From contig JACZVC010000017.1 in assembly GCA_022572885.1 (NCBI GenBank), positions 25,001 through 65,895 of the forward strand: DNA of 40,895 bases. The letters run 5' to 3'. The notes below the pieces were generated by a model, which saw nothing but the letters and a program-made list of their open reading frames with translations, was not told the origin of the DNA and did not search any database. A program made the translations under genes and the position numbers. Origin of the DNA: Pseudomonadota bacterium. GTDB taxonomy: Bacteria; Pseudomonadota; Gammaproteobacteria; Steroidobacterales; MnTg04. Of the stretch, positions 995-6,502 are shown in pieces; position 1 is the first letter of the stretch, and every line of letters starts with the position of its first letter.

Positions 995-2197
995 CTAGGG
1001 GGCCAAGCTGACCTTGGCAAACTTTCGTTTGCCGACCTGGATAATGTAGGTGGCGCCTGCTTTCAGCGCCAGATCGCGGTCCGTAACCTTGGCGCCGTCC
1101 ACCTGGACCGCGCCCTGCTTGAGCATACGGAACCCTTCCGAGTTGCTGGCGGTCAGCCCGGCGCCGCGCAGCACATTGGCGATGCCGAGCTCGCCATCTT
1201 CGGTCGCCAGTTCGCACTCGGTCATTTCGTCCGGTATTTCGCCGCGGCTAAACCTGGCGACAAAATCATCCCTTGCCTTTTCCGCCGCCGCGCGATCGTG
1301 AAATCGTTCTATGATTTCCATGGCAAGCTCGATCTTGATATCGCGCGGATTCCGGCCGTTGTCGGCGGCCTTCTGCAAAGCGGCTAAATCCGCGGTACTG
1401 CGAAAGCTGAGTAATTCAAAATAACGCCACATCAAATCATCGGAAACCGACATCAGCTTGCCAAACATTTCGGCGGGCGGGTCCGTTATGCCGACATAGT
1501 TACCCAGCGATTTGGACATCTTCTGGACACCATCGAGCCCCTCGAGCAAAGGCATGGTGACAACGATCTGGGGTTGCTGCCCGTACGCTTGCTGCAGTTG
1601 CCTGCCAACCAGTAAATTGAATTTCTGATCGGTGCCGCCCAGTTCGACATCGGCTTTCATCGCGATCGAGTCATAGCCTTGAACCAGCGGGTACAGGAAC
1701 TCGTGAATGGAAATGGCACGGCCGTCTTTGTAGCGTTTGCTGAAATCGTCCCTTTCCAACATCCGCGCCACCGTATGTTTACCCGCCAATTGAATCAGAT
1801 CGGCGGCCGACATTTCGCTCATCCAGGTCGAGTTAAACATGATTCTGGTCTGGTCAGGATCGAGAATCCTGAACACCTGGTCCTGATAGGTCTTCGCGTT
1901 TTCGAGAATCTCGTCCCGGCTCAATGCAGGCCGGGTCGCGTTCTTGCCGGTCGGGTCGCCAATCATTCCAGTAAAATCGCCGATCAGGAATATTACCTCG
2001 TGCCCCAACTGCTGGAACTGGCGCATCTTGTTGATCAGTACGGTGTGCCCGATGTGCAGATCGGGCGCCGTCGGATCGAACCCGGCTTTCACCCGCAGCT
2101 TGCCACCCGCTCGCAGGCGTTTCTCAAGTTCTTTCTCAACGATGACCTCATCTGCCCCTCGTTGAATGACTTCCATTTGTTCTTTGACTGAAGGCAT
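995..2197 (-). CDS. tyrS: Tyrosyl-tRNA synthetase
   Basis: Class I aminoacyl-tRNA synthetase that charges tRNA-Tyr in the cytoplasm. The protein is 400 residues. HIGH is at residues 48-51 (in DLHIGHTV), KMSKS at 226-230, and a C-terminal S4 RNA-binding domain ends the protein ([17 protein letters not shown]). The opening [19 protein letters not shown] matches the usual start of the roughly 400-residue TyrS subgroup, so I chose the ATG at 2197. A longer reading from TTG at 2269 adds 24 low-complexity residues and crosses a strong hairpin, so it is unlikely. No Shine-Dalgarno is visible before 2197, and an exact TATAAT sits six bases upstream, which suggests a leaderless transcript. The gene is divergent from the M23 peptidase gene, the arrangement I recall in Pseudomonas. 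Confidence 0.95.
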
Positions 2198-2203
2198 CAG
2201 GCG

Positions 2204-2209
2204 ATTATA
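2204..2209 (-). promoter_or_regulatory. Exact -10 TATAAT abutting the tyrS start codon
   Basis: On the minus strand TATAAT ends six bases before the chosen tyrS ATG, so transcription would begin at or near the A of the start codon. A weak -35 (GTGCAA, 3 of 6) lies exactly 17 bases further upstream, inside the hairpin at 2211-2236. With no ribosome-binding site visible, this fits a leaderless mRNA. The alternative is that the match is fortuitous and the real promoter is elsewhere. Confidence 0.4.
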
Positions 2210-2210
2210 G

Positions 2211-2249
2211 GGCTGGTGCAACCCAGTTGCACCGCCTGTCTTTTTTTTT
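2211..2249 (+). terminator. Hairpin followed by nine T residues in the tyrS/mepM divergent gap
   Basis: Arms GGTGCAAC (2215-2222) and GTTGCACC (2226-2233) pair perfectly around CCA. The stem is extended by GGC (2211-2213) with GCC (2234-2236) across a one-base bulge. After TGTC comes T9 at 2241-2249. On the plus strand this has the form of an intrinsic terminator, although no plus-strand gene ends upstream. It could stop antisense transcription through tyrS or attenuate the downstream M23 peptidase transcript. On the minus strand the same arms surround the tyrS promoter region. Confidence 0.5.
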
Positions 2250-2291
2250 GCCGGACTGGCAGCCGGCAAAGCCGCCGCTGGATGAATTTTG

Positions 2292-3809
2292 ATGAATTTG
2301 ACGCTTCTCGAAAGTCCCGTTAGTGTTAGCCGCAGCGAACATCCGGGGCCACAAGTGGACCGAATACCCAGCCAGTTAAGGCACGACTACAAATTTGTCT
2401 CCCCCGCGTCAGGTGTTTCTTTTCGGCTGCTCTGGTTTGCCACCGGTCTCGCTGTGTCGATCGGTGTTGCAATGATGCTTTTCGCTCCTGCCGAAACAGA
2501 ACCAGCCGATATTTCTGAATCGCTGACCCGCATCGTCGCAAATCGATCCGGCGACCACGTCCTGACCCTGCCCCTGTTGCTTCCCGCTGCCGGCCCCGCT
2601 GTTTCGACTTATGAGAATGACCAGCGGCTCACTGTGGCAGCCATCCTCCACAAAGACTTCCCATTGGTGAGCAACCCGGAAACAGGCACCCGAATCAGCG
2701 CTACCGGCGAAAAGCTGACCCTGACGGTCAAAAGCGGAGACACGCTGGATGGGTTATTTGGCAGGCACAATCTCAGGCGGGCCGATCTGATGGCATTGCT
2801 CGATCTGTCTGCGGCGAGATCGATGTTGCGCGACATCAAACCCGGTGATCGATTCGAAGTTACGCATAACAATGGCGATCTGCAGAGCCTCGAGCGCAGG
2901 GTTAATGAAACCACCACGGTTCGCGTAGTCCGCGATGAACAGGGATTCGCACTGCAGAAGATCGACCACCCGATCGAAAACAGGCTCGCCTATCGTCACG
3001 GAACAATAGACAGTTCACTTTTTGAAGCGGGTAAGCAGGCCAACGTTGCCGACAAGGTAATCATGAATCTGGCAGGCATATTTGCGTGGGACATCGATTT
3101 CGTTCTCGATATCCGGCGGGGAGACCGCTTTGTCGTCATCTATGAGGAAATCTGGCAGGAAGGCGAGTTCCTGCGCGATGGCGAAATCCAGGCTGCAGAG
3201 TTCATTAATAACGGCGATTCATATCGCGCGCTCCGCTACGTGGACAGTTCGGGAAAGGCTGATTACTACACACCCGATGGCCACTCGGTGCGCAAAGCCT
3301 TTATCCGGGCGCCGGTTGATTTTTCACGGGTCAGCTCGAGATTCAATCCCAGGCGCCGTCACCCGATACTAAATGTGGTACGGGCACACAAGGGCGTGGA
3401 TTATGCCGCGCCCAGCGGAACCCGGGTCAAGGCTGCGGGTGATGGTAAAGTCATTCACCGAGGCAAAAAAGGCGGTTATGGCAACACCATTATCTTGCAG
3501 CACGGTGGCAACATCACGACCCTTTATGGACATCTGTCCAGATTCGCGAGACAGGCCAGAATTGGCCGCCGCGTGAAGCAAGGCCAGGTAATCGGCTATG
3601 TCGGCAAAACAGGCCTCGCGACTGCACCGCACCTGCACTATGAATATCGATTGAATGGCGTACACCGAAATCCTCGTACGGTTTCCTTGCCAAAGGCGGC
3701 GCCGATTGCCGAAGACCAGCACGACGCTTTTTTTCAGCAGACTGGCGGGCTGCTGGCGCAACTGGATACAGTCAGGCGATCACAGGTCGCTATCGCGGCC
3801 GTTCCCTGA
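2292..3809 (+). CDS. mepM: M23-family peptidoglycan endopeptidase (MepM/OapA-like)
   Basis: A 505-residue inner-membrane-anchored zinc metallopeptidase expected to cut peptidoglycan cross-links in the periplasm. One membrane segment lies at about residues 37-58 ([20 protein letters not shown]). A LysM/OapA-like domain follows ([18 protein letters not shown], then IKPGDRFEV), then a connecting domain, then the lysostaphin-type M23 domain. The zinc-site motifs are intact: His366-x3-Asp370 in HKGVDYAAP and His447-Leu-His449 in HLHYEY. The ATG at 2292 was chosen; an in-frame TTG lies just before it. It is followed after 7 bases by anmK, so the two are probably co-transcribed. The symbol follows the E. 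coli family member and the exact substrate bond is inferred. Confidence 0.9.
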
Positions 3810-3816
3810 GCCACAG

Positions 3817-4926
3817 ATGGGTTCCAGCCTTTATATCGGTTTGCTGTCGGGTACCAGCCTCGATGCGATAGACGCCGCGCTGCTTTCTTTCGATAACGAG
3901 CTGCCAACATTAATCAGCACGGAAAGCCATGAGCTGCCGGCGAACCTTCGAAAAGAGCTGCTCCGCTTATTCGAGTACCCGGACCAGGCTGACCTCAGAG
4001 TACTCGGCAAACTCGACCGGGAACTGGGAGAATGCTTTGCCAGTACTGCCACCCGGCTGATCACGAAAGCGGCCATCGATGCCAGCGCCGTGGTCGCGAT
4101 CGGCAGTCATGGACAGACACTGTGGCACCAGCCAGGCGAAAACGGGTTCACCTGGCAAATGGGCGATCCAAACATCATCGCCGCGAAAACCGGGATCAAA
4201 ACAGTGGCTGATTTCAGGCGCATGGATATCGCGCTCGGTGGCCAGGGAGCGCCGCTGGCCCCGGCCTTTCACCGGGTTGTTTTCGCCAGCGCCGATGAAT
4301 ACCGGGTTGTGGTCAACATCGGTGGTATATCCAACCTGACGCTGTTACCAACCGAGGAGACGGTCCATGGCTTTGATGCGGGCCCGGGTAACGTATTGAT
4401 GGATGCCTGGTGCAGGCGTCATCGGGATCAAAAATTCGACTGTGACGGCGAATGGGCCACCAGTGGGACGGTTATCCAGGAACTGCTGGATTCCATGCTC
4501 GCGCATGACTTCTTTGCGAAGTCTCCGCCGAAAAGCACGGGCCGCGAGACGTTCCACCTGGCCTGGGTCGACGGGCTGATCAGCAAGCTGGAGCAATCGC
4601 CGCGCCTGCAGGATGTACAGGCGACGCTGGCGGAATTGACCGCGAGCGCTATCGGCAATGCGGTTCGCGACCATGCGGCGGACAGTACACGGGTTTTGAT
4701 CTGCGGCGGAGGCGGCAAAAACCTCCACTTGATGAAAAGATTACGGGCGCATCTGCAAGGACGTAGCGTATCGACGACTGCGGAATACGGCCTGAATCCG
4801 GGTTGGGTCGAGGCGGCCGTCTTCGCCTGGCTGGCCAAGGAAACCATCGCGGGAAGGCCGATAGATCTGCCTGCGATCACCGGTTCGAGCAAGGCCGCGA
4901 TACTGGGTGGTATTTATTCGGTCTAG
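3817..4926 (+). CDS. anmK: Anhydro-N-acetylmuramic acid kinase
   Basis: Cytoplasmic enzyme that hydrolyses the anhydro ring and phosphorylates 1,6-anhydro-MurNAc to MurNAc-6-phosphate in peptidoglycan recycling. The 369 residues equal the length I recall for the E. coli enzyme. Recognisable motifs are GLLSGTSLDAIDAALLSF near the N-terminus, IGSHGQTLWHQP, VNIGGISNLT, GFDAGPGNVLMDAW and ICGGGGKN, an ASKHA-type nucleotide-binding layout. The ATG at 3817 begins exactly at the conserved N-terminus, and a longer open frame upstream overlaps the M23 gene and is rejected. It is coupled to the M23 peptidase gene, and AmpD, which also acts on anhydromuropeptides, is encoded at 28152-28727. Confidence 0.95.
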   Translation: MGSSLYIGLLSGTSLDAIDAALLSFDNELPTLISTESHELPANLRKELLRLFEYPDQADLRVLGKLDRELGECFASTATRLITKAAIDASAVVAIGSHGQTLWHQPGENGFTWQMGDPNIIAAKTGIKTVADFRRMDIALGGQGAPLAPAFHRVVFASADEYRVVVNIGGISNLTLLPTEETVHGFDAGPGNVLMDAWCRRHRDQKFDCDGEWATSGTVIQELLDSMLAHDFFAKSPPKSTGRETFHLAWVDGLISKLEQSPRLQDVQATLAELTASAIGNAVRDHAADSTRVLICGGGGKNLHLMKRLRAHLQGRSVSTTAEYGLNPGWVEAAVFAWLAKETIAGRPIDLPAITGSSKAAILGGIYSV

Positions 4927-4937
4927 CCGCCTGTCTG

Positions 4938-5279
4938 TCAGACCGAAAAGGATGAGCCGCAACCACAGGTGCTGCTCGCATTGGGATTTCTGATTACGAA
5001 CTGTGCGCCTTGGAGATCCTCGTTGTAATCGATTTCGGCGCCAGCCAGATACTGAACGCTCAATGGATCTATCAGCAAGGTTACACCGCAGTTTTCTATC
5101 CTGGTGTCGCCGTCTTCCACGGTCTCGTCAAAAGTAAAGCCGTATTGAAAACCCGAACAGCCGCCGCCGGCCACATAGACGCGAAGTTTCAGATCCGGGT
5201 TGTCCTCTTCACGGATCAGCTCCCCGACCTTCATGGCGGCCGAGTCTGTAAATATCAATACCGCTGTTTCTGCTGTCAT
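4938..5279 (-). CDS. erpA: Iron-sulfur cluster insertion protein ErpA
   Basis: A-type iron-sulfur carrier of 113 residues that transfers clusters to apo-proteins such as the isoprenoid enzymes IspG and IspH. The three cluster cysteines of the family are present: Cys41 in [12 protein letters not shown] and Cys105 and Cys107 in TCGCGSSF. The N-terminus ([15 protein letters not shown]) and the invariant YLAGAEIDY segment fit ErpA better than IscA. It ends 11 bases from the end of anmK, which converges on it. It lies downstream of the bactofilin gene but has its own promoter-like sequence at 5306-5334, so it may be expressed independently. Confidence 0.94.
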
Positions 5280-5305
5280 CTCAATACCACAGTCTGTACA
5301 GGTTC

Positions 5306-5334
5306 TTTATAGGCCTCCGATGCCCGTTTTTCAA
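5306..5334 (-). promoter_or_regulatory. Sigma-70-like promoter for erpA
   Basis: On the minus strand TTGAAA (5 of 6 to the -35 consensus), a 17-base spacer and TATAAA (5 of 6 to the -10 consensus) lie 26 bases upstream of the erpA start. The -35 overlaps the bactofilin stop codon. An inverted repeat (GATGCC with GGCATC, 5319-5342) spans the spacer and could be a weak 3' hairpin of the bactofilin transcript or an operator. Confidence 0.6.
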
Positions 5335-5735
5335 GAGGCATCGCTGACCTTCTTCTGATACGCCAGCAAAGGCGTGGTCGTGCCCGGCCGGTGGATCAGC
5401 TTACCATTGACCTCGGCGCCAATCGACATTTCTATCAGATTGTAATACACGTTGCCGTTAACCTTCGCATTCGGCCCGAGCACGATGCGATTCCCTGCAA
5501 CCACGTCACCAATAATCGTTCCGTTTAGCACGATTTCCGGCGCGCTGACGGTTCCTTCAATAACCCCGCGTTCGCTGATGCTGACTATCGATATCGTTTC
5601 GGCGGCCGCCTTTACGTTGCCTTTGATATAACCATCGACATGAAAGCCGCCGCCGAACCTTATATCGCCCTCAACGCGGCTGTTGCAACCGATCAGCGTA
5701 TCGATTGAAGGGTTTTTCTTTTTACGACCAAACAT
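5331..5735 (-). CDS. Bactofilin (polymer-forming cytoskeletal protein)
   Basis: A 134-residue bactofilin-domain protein. The basic N-terminus MFGRKKKNPSI is followed by a right-handed beta-helix recognisable from its repeating short strands and turns (VEGDIRFGGGFHVDGYIKG, VIEGTVSAPEIVLNGTI, IIGDVVAGNRIVLG). Bactofilins polymerise without nucleotide and scaffold cell-wall enzymes or polar complexes at the membrane. A good ribosome-binding site, GGGGGA, precedes the ATG. The gene lies 26 bases downstream of the coiled-coil membrane protein gene and 51 bases upstream of erpA. Its proximity to an M23 endopeptidase and anmK suggests a cell-wall job here, which is inference. Confidence 0.92.
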   Translation of the reverse strand: MFGRKKKNPSIDTLIGCNSRVEGDIRFGGGFHVDGYIKGNVKAAAETISIVSISERGVIEGTVSAPEIVLNGTIIGDVVAGNRIVLGPNAKVNGNVYYNLIEMSIGAEVNGKLIHRPGTTTPLLAYQKKVSDAS

Positions 5736-5761
5736 TGATTCCCCCGAACATCGTAAAAGTA

Positions 5762-6502
5762 TTAACCGTTCTGCGGTTGCCAGTCAAAAGACTGACGCAC
5801 GGCTCGCGACGGCCGCCGGCTTGGCACCGGCACCACGTTAATCCGTTCCGCGACAAATCCTTCCGGTAAGACCAGTTCTCGCTCGAACTCCTGGAAATAC
5901 CTGAACGAAAATTCTATGGGCTCAAACTGCTCGCCCGGCCGGCCCAGTTGCGACAAATCGAGAGTCACGGATTTTCCGTCCTGGACGCCATCGACAGATA
6001 TTCGAACCCGGCCGGAAACGATGCGGCTGTGATTAACCGCCTGCATCAGGACCAGGTGCAAGCGGAAATATTTTTCCTCGGCAAGCTGCAGCAGACTCAT
6101 CTCCTGTATCTGCAGCCCTTCCGCCTGCGATTCGGGTGCCATGATGCCGCGATAGAAATTCAGGTCTTTCTGCCGGTCGGCAAGTTCTTGCTGAAGTTCC
6201 AGGAGTCTTTCCTCGACCTGCGAATACGCCTCTTTGTCGATTCGGTGCGATGCGTCCAGCACGGCCACTTTCTGCCTCAGCCCATCGGAAGTAACACCCA
6301 GGTCAGCGATCTGTTGTCGCAGACCACTCTCCGTCTCCACCGCCTCAAGAACAAAAAATCCGGCCTGCATTCGCCCGTATTCGAAACTGAGCCAGATTGC
6401 CCCGAACAACATGAGCAGCGCGATCGCCCAGTTGAGGCGCGACCGAAGGGGTGAATAATTTTTCACGATCAAACGTGATTTACCCACCGCCGGTTCCTCC
6501 AT
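5762..6502 (-). CDS. Coiled-coil inner-membrane protein, DUF6776-like
   Basis: A 246-residue protein of no established function. A short basic cytoplasmic N-terminus is followed by one membrane segment at about residues 23-45 (LNWAIALLMLFGAIWLSFEY). Residues about 55-120 are strongly coiled-coil (LRQQIADLGVTSDGLRQKVA, then VEERLLELQQELADRQKDL). A globular beta-rich periplasmic part follows, with FYRGIMAPESQAEGLQIQ at its start. The C-terminus is basic and proline-rich (VPVPSRRPSRAVRQ). From memory it matches the family now called DUF6776 that accompanies bactofilin and erpA in gammaproteobacteria. Close linkage to the bactofilin gene (26 bases) suggests the two products cooperate, perhaps as a membrane partner of the filament. 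Confidence 0.75.
   Translation of the reverse strand: MEEPAVGKSRLIVKNYSPLRSRLNWAIALLMLFGAIWLSFEYGRMQAGFFVLEAVETESGLRQQIADLGVTSDGLRQKVAVLDASHRIDKEAYSQVEERLLELQQELADRQKDLNFYRGIMAPESQAEGLQIQEMSLLQLAEEKYFRLHLVLMQAVNHSRIVSGRVRISVDGVQDGKSVTLDLSQLGRPGEQFEPIEFSFRYFQEFERELVLPEGFVAERINVVPVPSRRPSRAVRQSFDWQPQNG

Follow-up and report, generated by a model that had tools for sequence, protein, structure and literature searches.

The way in which bactofilins hold their client proteins has been described as poorly understood (PMC12448750). In Hyphomonas neptunium and Rhodospirillum rubrum, the M23 peptidase LmdC is bactofilin-bound, its tail binding BacA with a dissociation constant (KD) of about 15 uM (PMC10945521). 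In Caulobacter crescentus, BacA recruits the bitopic protein PbpC, which attaches through its 13 N-terminal residues (KD 4.9 uM; PMC12448750). In Helicobacter pylori, the non-enzymatic membrane proteins Csd5 and Csd7 are interaction partners of the bactofilin CcmA in a complex with wall enzymes (PMC9507126). Here we analyze a bactofilin locus in a 40,895-nucleotide stretch of a gammaproteobacterial genome from the order Steroidobacterales (GCA_022572885.1, contig JACZVC010000017.1, positions 25,001 to 65,895; hereafter "the window"). The gene preceding the bactofilin encodes a membrane protein of the DUF6776 family, and comparison of its relatives suggests that it is probably a non-enzymatic client or anchor of bactofilin, docking by its N-terminal cytoplasmic tail. 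The features of these genes are as follows (ORF, open reading frame; Ig, immunoglobulin).

5762..6502, minus strand: DUF6776 protein (PF20567), 246 amino acids (aa), single membrane helix, N-terminus probably cytoplasmic (ORF, Pfam, AlphaFold2)
6449..6472, minus strand: LIVKNYSP at residues 11-18 of the tail, the peptide proposed to dock on bactofilin (motif score 15.0 bits)
6380..6436, minus strand: core of the membrane helix, residues 23-41 (sequence and AlphaFold2 model)
6140..6358, minus strand: long, coiled-coil-like helix, residues 49-121 (AlphaFold2 model and hydrophobic period)
5783..6115, minus strand: predicted periplasmic Ig-like beta-sandwich, residues 130-240 (AlphaFold2 model and fold search)
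5331..5735, minus strand: bactofilin (PF04519), 134 aa, begins MFGRKKK (ORF, Pfam, solved-structure matches)
4938..5279, minus strand: erpA, encoding an iron-sulfur insertion protein; last of the three genes in the row (ORF and profile)

The DUF6776-bactofilin pair

The original prediction placed a bactofilin 26 bases after the gene of an uncharacterised membrane protein, and the ORF coordinates bear this out: DUF6776 is followed after 26 bp by bactofilin, and bactofilin after 51 bp by erpA. The word "uncharacterised" holds in that no function has been described, but the protein belongs to an already named Pfam family, with a match to PF20567 over residues 75-223 (E 1.2e-45) that covers profile positions 1-149 at 155.6 bits, well over the gathering cut-off of 27. 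The second product matches PF04519 with 76 bits (cut-off 27.9, E 2.8e-21) as well as the solved bactofilins 2n3d and 6ria, and its N-terminal MFGRKKK resembles the membrane-targeting consensus given for bactofilins of Pseudomonadota (PMC12448750). A promoter and terminator scan of the locus gave results near chance level.

Profile searches in 232 presumed gammaproteobacterial genomes revealed DUF6776 in 134 and any bactofilin in 151, with both families in 123 genomes, DUF6776 only in 11, bactofilin only in 28 and neither in 70 (Fisher p 1e-24, uncorrected for kinship). In 118 of the 123 two-gene genomes the genes lie near each other (109 from their listed positions, 9 from fetched stretches), and in the remaining 5 they lie 2.4-4.5 kb apart. 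A larger draw from the class yielded DUF6776 in 210/370 genomes, so that in both draws more than half of the genomes carry this family, for which no function is described. In a draw from the whole phylum 25/150 genomes match, 17 inside the class and 8 outside, the latter including one strong match (E 1.8e-22) and three under the cut-off. Among 80 further contigs picked by similarity to DUF6776 (L184-L263), some of which coincide with contigs of the class-genome set, 75 carry a bactofilin within the fetched stretch; the pair occurs, for example, in the cultured Thiohalophilus thiocyanatoxydans DSM 16326 (L223). The pair thus adjoins in most of the sampled DUF6776-bearing genomes, more often than expected by chance. 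Three genomes contain second, divergent copies of DUF6776 (L018, L019, L039), with neither erpA nor bactofilin in the stretch. An apparently duplicated module in one genome (G329) was set aside; both of its pairs adjoin erpA and the genome is marked as 3% contaminated. The motif discussed below was not seen by eye in the two DUF6776 tails of that genome.

The AlphaFold2 model of the DUF6776 protein, built with 57 sequences (mean predicted local distance difference test score 88.8, predicted TM-score 0.52), comprises a 17-residue tail devoid of secondary structure, a membrane helix (residues 18-46), a 73-residue helix (49-121) and a series of beta strands (130-240). The strongest hydrophobic period of the long helix is 3.50 residues, the value of a coiled coil, but its power is not above the 99% level of shuffled sequences, and because of this we regard the coiled coil as likely, not proven. 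The predicted architecture agrees with the single-pass protein with a periplasmic domain that had been proposed, while its coiled coil stands only in this qualified form. Fold searches assign an Ig-like fold to the beta domain (best Z 9.9, root-mean-square deviation 2.3 over 97 residues), with many unrelated Ig-like domains tied as matches (Foldseek TM-scores 0.23-0.31 by query length), and with such a domain an adaptor role would be more natural than an enzymatic one. A search of solved structures by sequence returned nothing for DUF6776 below E 0.12, and the periplasmic fold of MreC was not among the matches listed in the fold searches, from which no exclusion follows. Where the long helix ends (residues 104-120, about 6143-6193) we noticed a stretch with the signature FYRG, periplasmic by its position, that erodes in bactofilin-less genomes; F116 is conserved at 0.95 among proteins with bactofilin and at 0.37 in genomes without it.

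The cytoplasmic tail and the presence of bactofilin

A tail that binds bactofilin should decay where bactofilin has been lost. To follow this rationale, we compared 163 DUF6776 proteins, 144 whose locus includes a bactofilin and 19 whose genomes have no PF04519 match (11 from the first draw, 7 from searches among kin and 1 from the larger draw). A motif of width 8 was learned from the bactofilin-positive tails and applied in a leave-one-family-out scheme. It reads (L/F)(V/I)(V/I)(K/R)xHxP, stops some 3 residues short of the membrane helix, and scores above the shuffled 95% level in 91/144 bactofilin-positive proteins and in 1/19 bactofilin-less ones. The sole match among the latter (L010) lies upstream of the start codon; with a position filter, chosen after that match had been seen, the counts become 90/144 versus 0/19, and this difference argues that DUF6776 most likely docks by its tail. 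The difference persists with one value per family (94 vs 11 families, p 2e-6) and among the proteins that score under 190 domain bits, of which 16/44 versus 0/16 pass (p 5e-7 for scores).

A tree built from the periplasmic part requires 8 or more switches between presence and absence of bactofilin, and the probability that all 19 proteins lack the motif, with rates fitted on the bactofilin-positive leaves, is 2.8e-4 or 9.6e-5 depending on the root assumption. This conditional calculation replaced a first simulation, which gave P 0.21 for 0/19 because the stationary motif frequency fitted there (0.15) was far below the observed one, and in which the observed difference was reached in 0/5000 draws. 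Family f79 offers the nearest comparison: its tails read RIVIKK, RIVVKK or RIVIQQ where bactofilin is present, with scores of 4.8-5.0, barely over the level of 4.47, and RSVIGG and RTVIDE where it is absent. The two bactofilin-less species group together on the tree, and the loss in this family therefore counts as one event.

Several observations weigh against docking by the tail. The motif is not recognisable in place in 54/144 bactofilin-positive proteins, and in the window's own order, where the window (15.0) and L125 (9.4) pass, two of the three other proteins fail (L126, 2.8; L040, -2.3). The bactofilin-less set is rich in kin, with its 19 proteins coming from 11 families and 7 of them found via relatives of known bactofilin-less genomes, and a strict test of independent pairs retains only 3 supported pairs, of which on average 2.1 agree and 0 oppose (median p 0.5). 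Conservation declines beyond the tail as well, where 24 conserved positions are retained at 61% in bactofilin-less versus 76% in bactofilin-positive proteins, and at 58% in the low-scoring bactofilin-positive ones. As the motif is basic and close to the membrane helix, it might be a mere topogenic, positive-inside signal; such a signal, however, would be expected in the 19 bactofilin-less proteins too, and only 13/514 other frames that have a membrane-like stretch near the N-terminus score as well, which makes this explanation highly improbable.

On balance, the proposal that the protein is a membrane partner of bactofilin draws support from co-occurrence, from adjacency and, above all, from a tail motif that none of the 19 proteins from bactofilin-less genomes shows in place. 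In the mechanism that we infer, the N-terminal cytoplasmic tail (LVVKxHxP type) would bind the co-encoded bactofilin polymer directly on the cytoplasmic side of the membrane. The single membrane helix and the long coiled coil, which is probably dimeric, would carry the Ig-like domain into the periplasm, where this domain would retain or place a partner of the envelope; a wall hydrolase is our leading guess for that partner. The fact that an eight-residue motif is missing where bactofilin is missing makes a direct binding test possible, and tail docking, if true, would give a function to a widespread uncharacterised family.

Conserved neighbourhood and wall enzymes

The pair belongs to a longer conserved neighbourhood, whose other members in the window are listed below.

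2289..3809, plus strand: M23 peptidase, relative of MepM/ShyC (LysM_OapA + Csd3_N2 + M23), start probably GTG 2355
2385..2393, plus strand: DYK in the cytoplasmic tail of the M23 protein (tail comparison with relatives)
3817..4926, plus strand: anmK, neighbour on the other strand (ORF and Pfam)
995..2269, minus strand: presumably tyrS, neighbourhood landmark (ORF; same neighbour in relatives)

The order DUF6776/bactofilin/erpA followed by anmK/M23/tyrS is widely conserved among relatives, which raises the alternative of a frozen neighbourhood whose proteins do not interact. Conservation of gene order well beyond the pair speaks for it, and so do the genomes with one partner only. DUF6776 remains beside erpA with bactofilin gone in 7/11 DUF6776-only genomes (the other 4 have no erpA in the fetched stretch), and an erpA-linked bactofilin without DUF6776 is present in 5 of the 14 bactofilin-only genomes for which stretches were fetched (28 in total); directly upstream of the latter we found a frame that we take to be argC in L023, L030, L032 and L034, not seen in L028. 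From these 7 and 5 loci it follows that neither gene strictly needs the other, which counts against a partnership, and since each can persist alone, adjacency by itself is no proof of one. Synteny, however, gives no reason why the tail motif should disappear together with bactofilin to a greater degree than the protein diverges in general, and we consider it unlikely as the whole explanation.

The M23 endopeptidase with a LysM/OapA-like domain and the AnmK named in the original prediction are confirmed by Pfam (M23, E 1.9e-32; Csd3_N2, E 3.9e-9; LysM_OapA, E 4.3e-6; AnmK, E 4.2e-136), but on the strand opposite to DUF6776. The M23 gene and anmK run convergently to DUF6776-bactofilin-erpA and do not form one operon with them, for this reason; the presumed tyrS is divergent from the M23 gene. 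The M23 protein scores below the NCBIfam equivalog cut-offs of ShyC (332 bits; cut-off 700), ShyA (190.9; 700) and MepM (176.1; 341), so it is a relative and no confirmed ortholog of these proteins. It more likely starts at GTG 2355 than at 2292, because the tail conserved in relatives begins about there; from this codon its tail aligns with those of relatives such as VNYNSFLTRDYK, whose own starts are likewise predicted. This N-terminal cytoplasmic tail with DYK (2355-2400) is very similar in some clades (VDYNSFLTRDYKSL).

That DUF6776 links this M23 peptidase, together with AnmK, to bactofilin was the full original idea, for which the proximity of the M23 gene and the precedent of LmdC, an M23 peptidase paired with a bactofilin (PMC10945521), can be cited. 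The idea finds no support in the distribution of the genes: the M23 gene lies on the other strand, and the M23/anmK/tyrS block is also present in genomes without bactofilin. The M23 protein, moreover, has a tail of its own, in which D(Y/F)(K/R) occurs in 14/34 bactofilin-positive versus 5/35 bactofilin-negative genomes (p 0.016), or 14/30 versus 5/26 by family (p 0.047), counting hits of at least 300 bits in frames of at least 420 aa with a membrane stretch and excluding contigs L184-L263. This association is weak, suggestive at most, and we judge the link through DUF6776 to be very unlikely. Exclusivity of the DYK tail to bactofilin genomes was dropped as an idea after 25 more bactofilin-less M23 proteins gave five with DYK, and AnmK was set aside as a module member, as it travels with the M23/tyrS block.

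Another candidate wall enzyme adjoins DUF6776 in some lineages. A gene of an M14 zinc carboxypeptidase directly follows DUF6776 in 14 loci on 11 distinct contigs (L013-L017, L129, L231, L244, L249, L250, L254, L255, L258, L260), with PF00246 confirmed in five of the five loci scanned. It is present in 12/13 loci with a gap of more than 600 bp between DUF6776 and bactofilin, and in L231 and L254 it stands beside DUF6776 with no bactofilin in the fetched stretch. DUF6776 might then mainly partner a periplasmic wall carboxypeptidase, with bactofilin as a positioning scaffold; outside contigs L184-L263, however, the M14 neighbour is limited to families f117, f50 and f83, and it was not seen beside the DUF6776 gene of the window. 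We consider this reading quite unlikely. The connection of DUF6776 to wall enzymes is a lead, no result. Still broader, and doubtful, would be a module throughout Gammaproteobacteria with DUF6776 as its hub, in which bactofilin filaments gather DUF6776 (LVVKxHxP) and a MepM-like M23 peptidase (DYK tail), and DUF6776 positions wall-trimming enzymes such as M14: a wall-remodelling complex analogous to the Helicobacter shape complex, made of other parts.

Other bactofilins were also encountered. The genome of the window encodes a second, distant one (L294:5064-5594, on G000:C9), whose neighbours we take to be LysE-type exporter-like and threonine-synthase-like; it was rejected as an M23 partner, as no M23-like frame was seen by eye among the listed surrounding ORFs of at least 150 aa. 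In six bactofilin-only loci (L024, L025, L026, L029, L033 and L035) a different type of bactofilin has an adjoining M23 gene, resembling the LmdC pairing in position and architecture only. The tails of these M23 proteins are ITITD..G.KHYT-like in some loci and of a different basic kind in others. On direct look, the six (e.g. LTITITDVNGSKHYT) score under the DUF6776 motif level; the L025 tail alone passes it when scanned again with a window that extends into the membrane helix.

Comparison with described bactofilin systems

The P. aeruginosa member of DUF6776 is, we presume, PA0663, a tag that occurs in one paper of the searched literature. The family itself is named there by a single paper, in a table of hypothetical proteins of that species (PMC12864544). 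Our searches returned no paper combining any two of bactofilin, erpA and anmK, none that brings together co-occurrence, coiled-coil, gammaproteobacteria and bactofilin, and a single one, already drawn on here, that treats a bactofilin client with a cytoplasmic tail. As 47 papers deal with both bactofilin and P. aeruginosa, the pair may have been mentioned before.

By its published description, LmdC shares with the DUF6776 protein a short N-terminal cytoplasmic tail, one membrane helix, a (here likely) coiled coil, a periplasmic domain and a gene next to bactofilin. LmdC, however, has an M23 domain where DUF6776 has the predicted Ig-like one, and the LmdC tail is described as a beta-hairpin, whereas the DUF6776 motif would be one strand-like stretch. 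Pfam yields no M23 match in the DUF6776 protein, C-terminal or other, and because this domain is absent the protein, judged by its sequence, is not an LmdC. PbpC, also a bitopic membrane protein, offers a precedent for recruitment by an N-terminal tail, but is a wall synthase with a periplasmic part unrelated to DUF6776. With Csd5 and Csd7, compared by description only, DUF6776 would share the role of a non-enzymatic membrane protein that works alongside a bactofilin.

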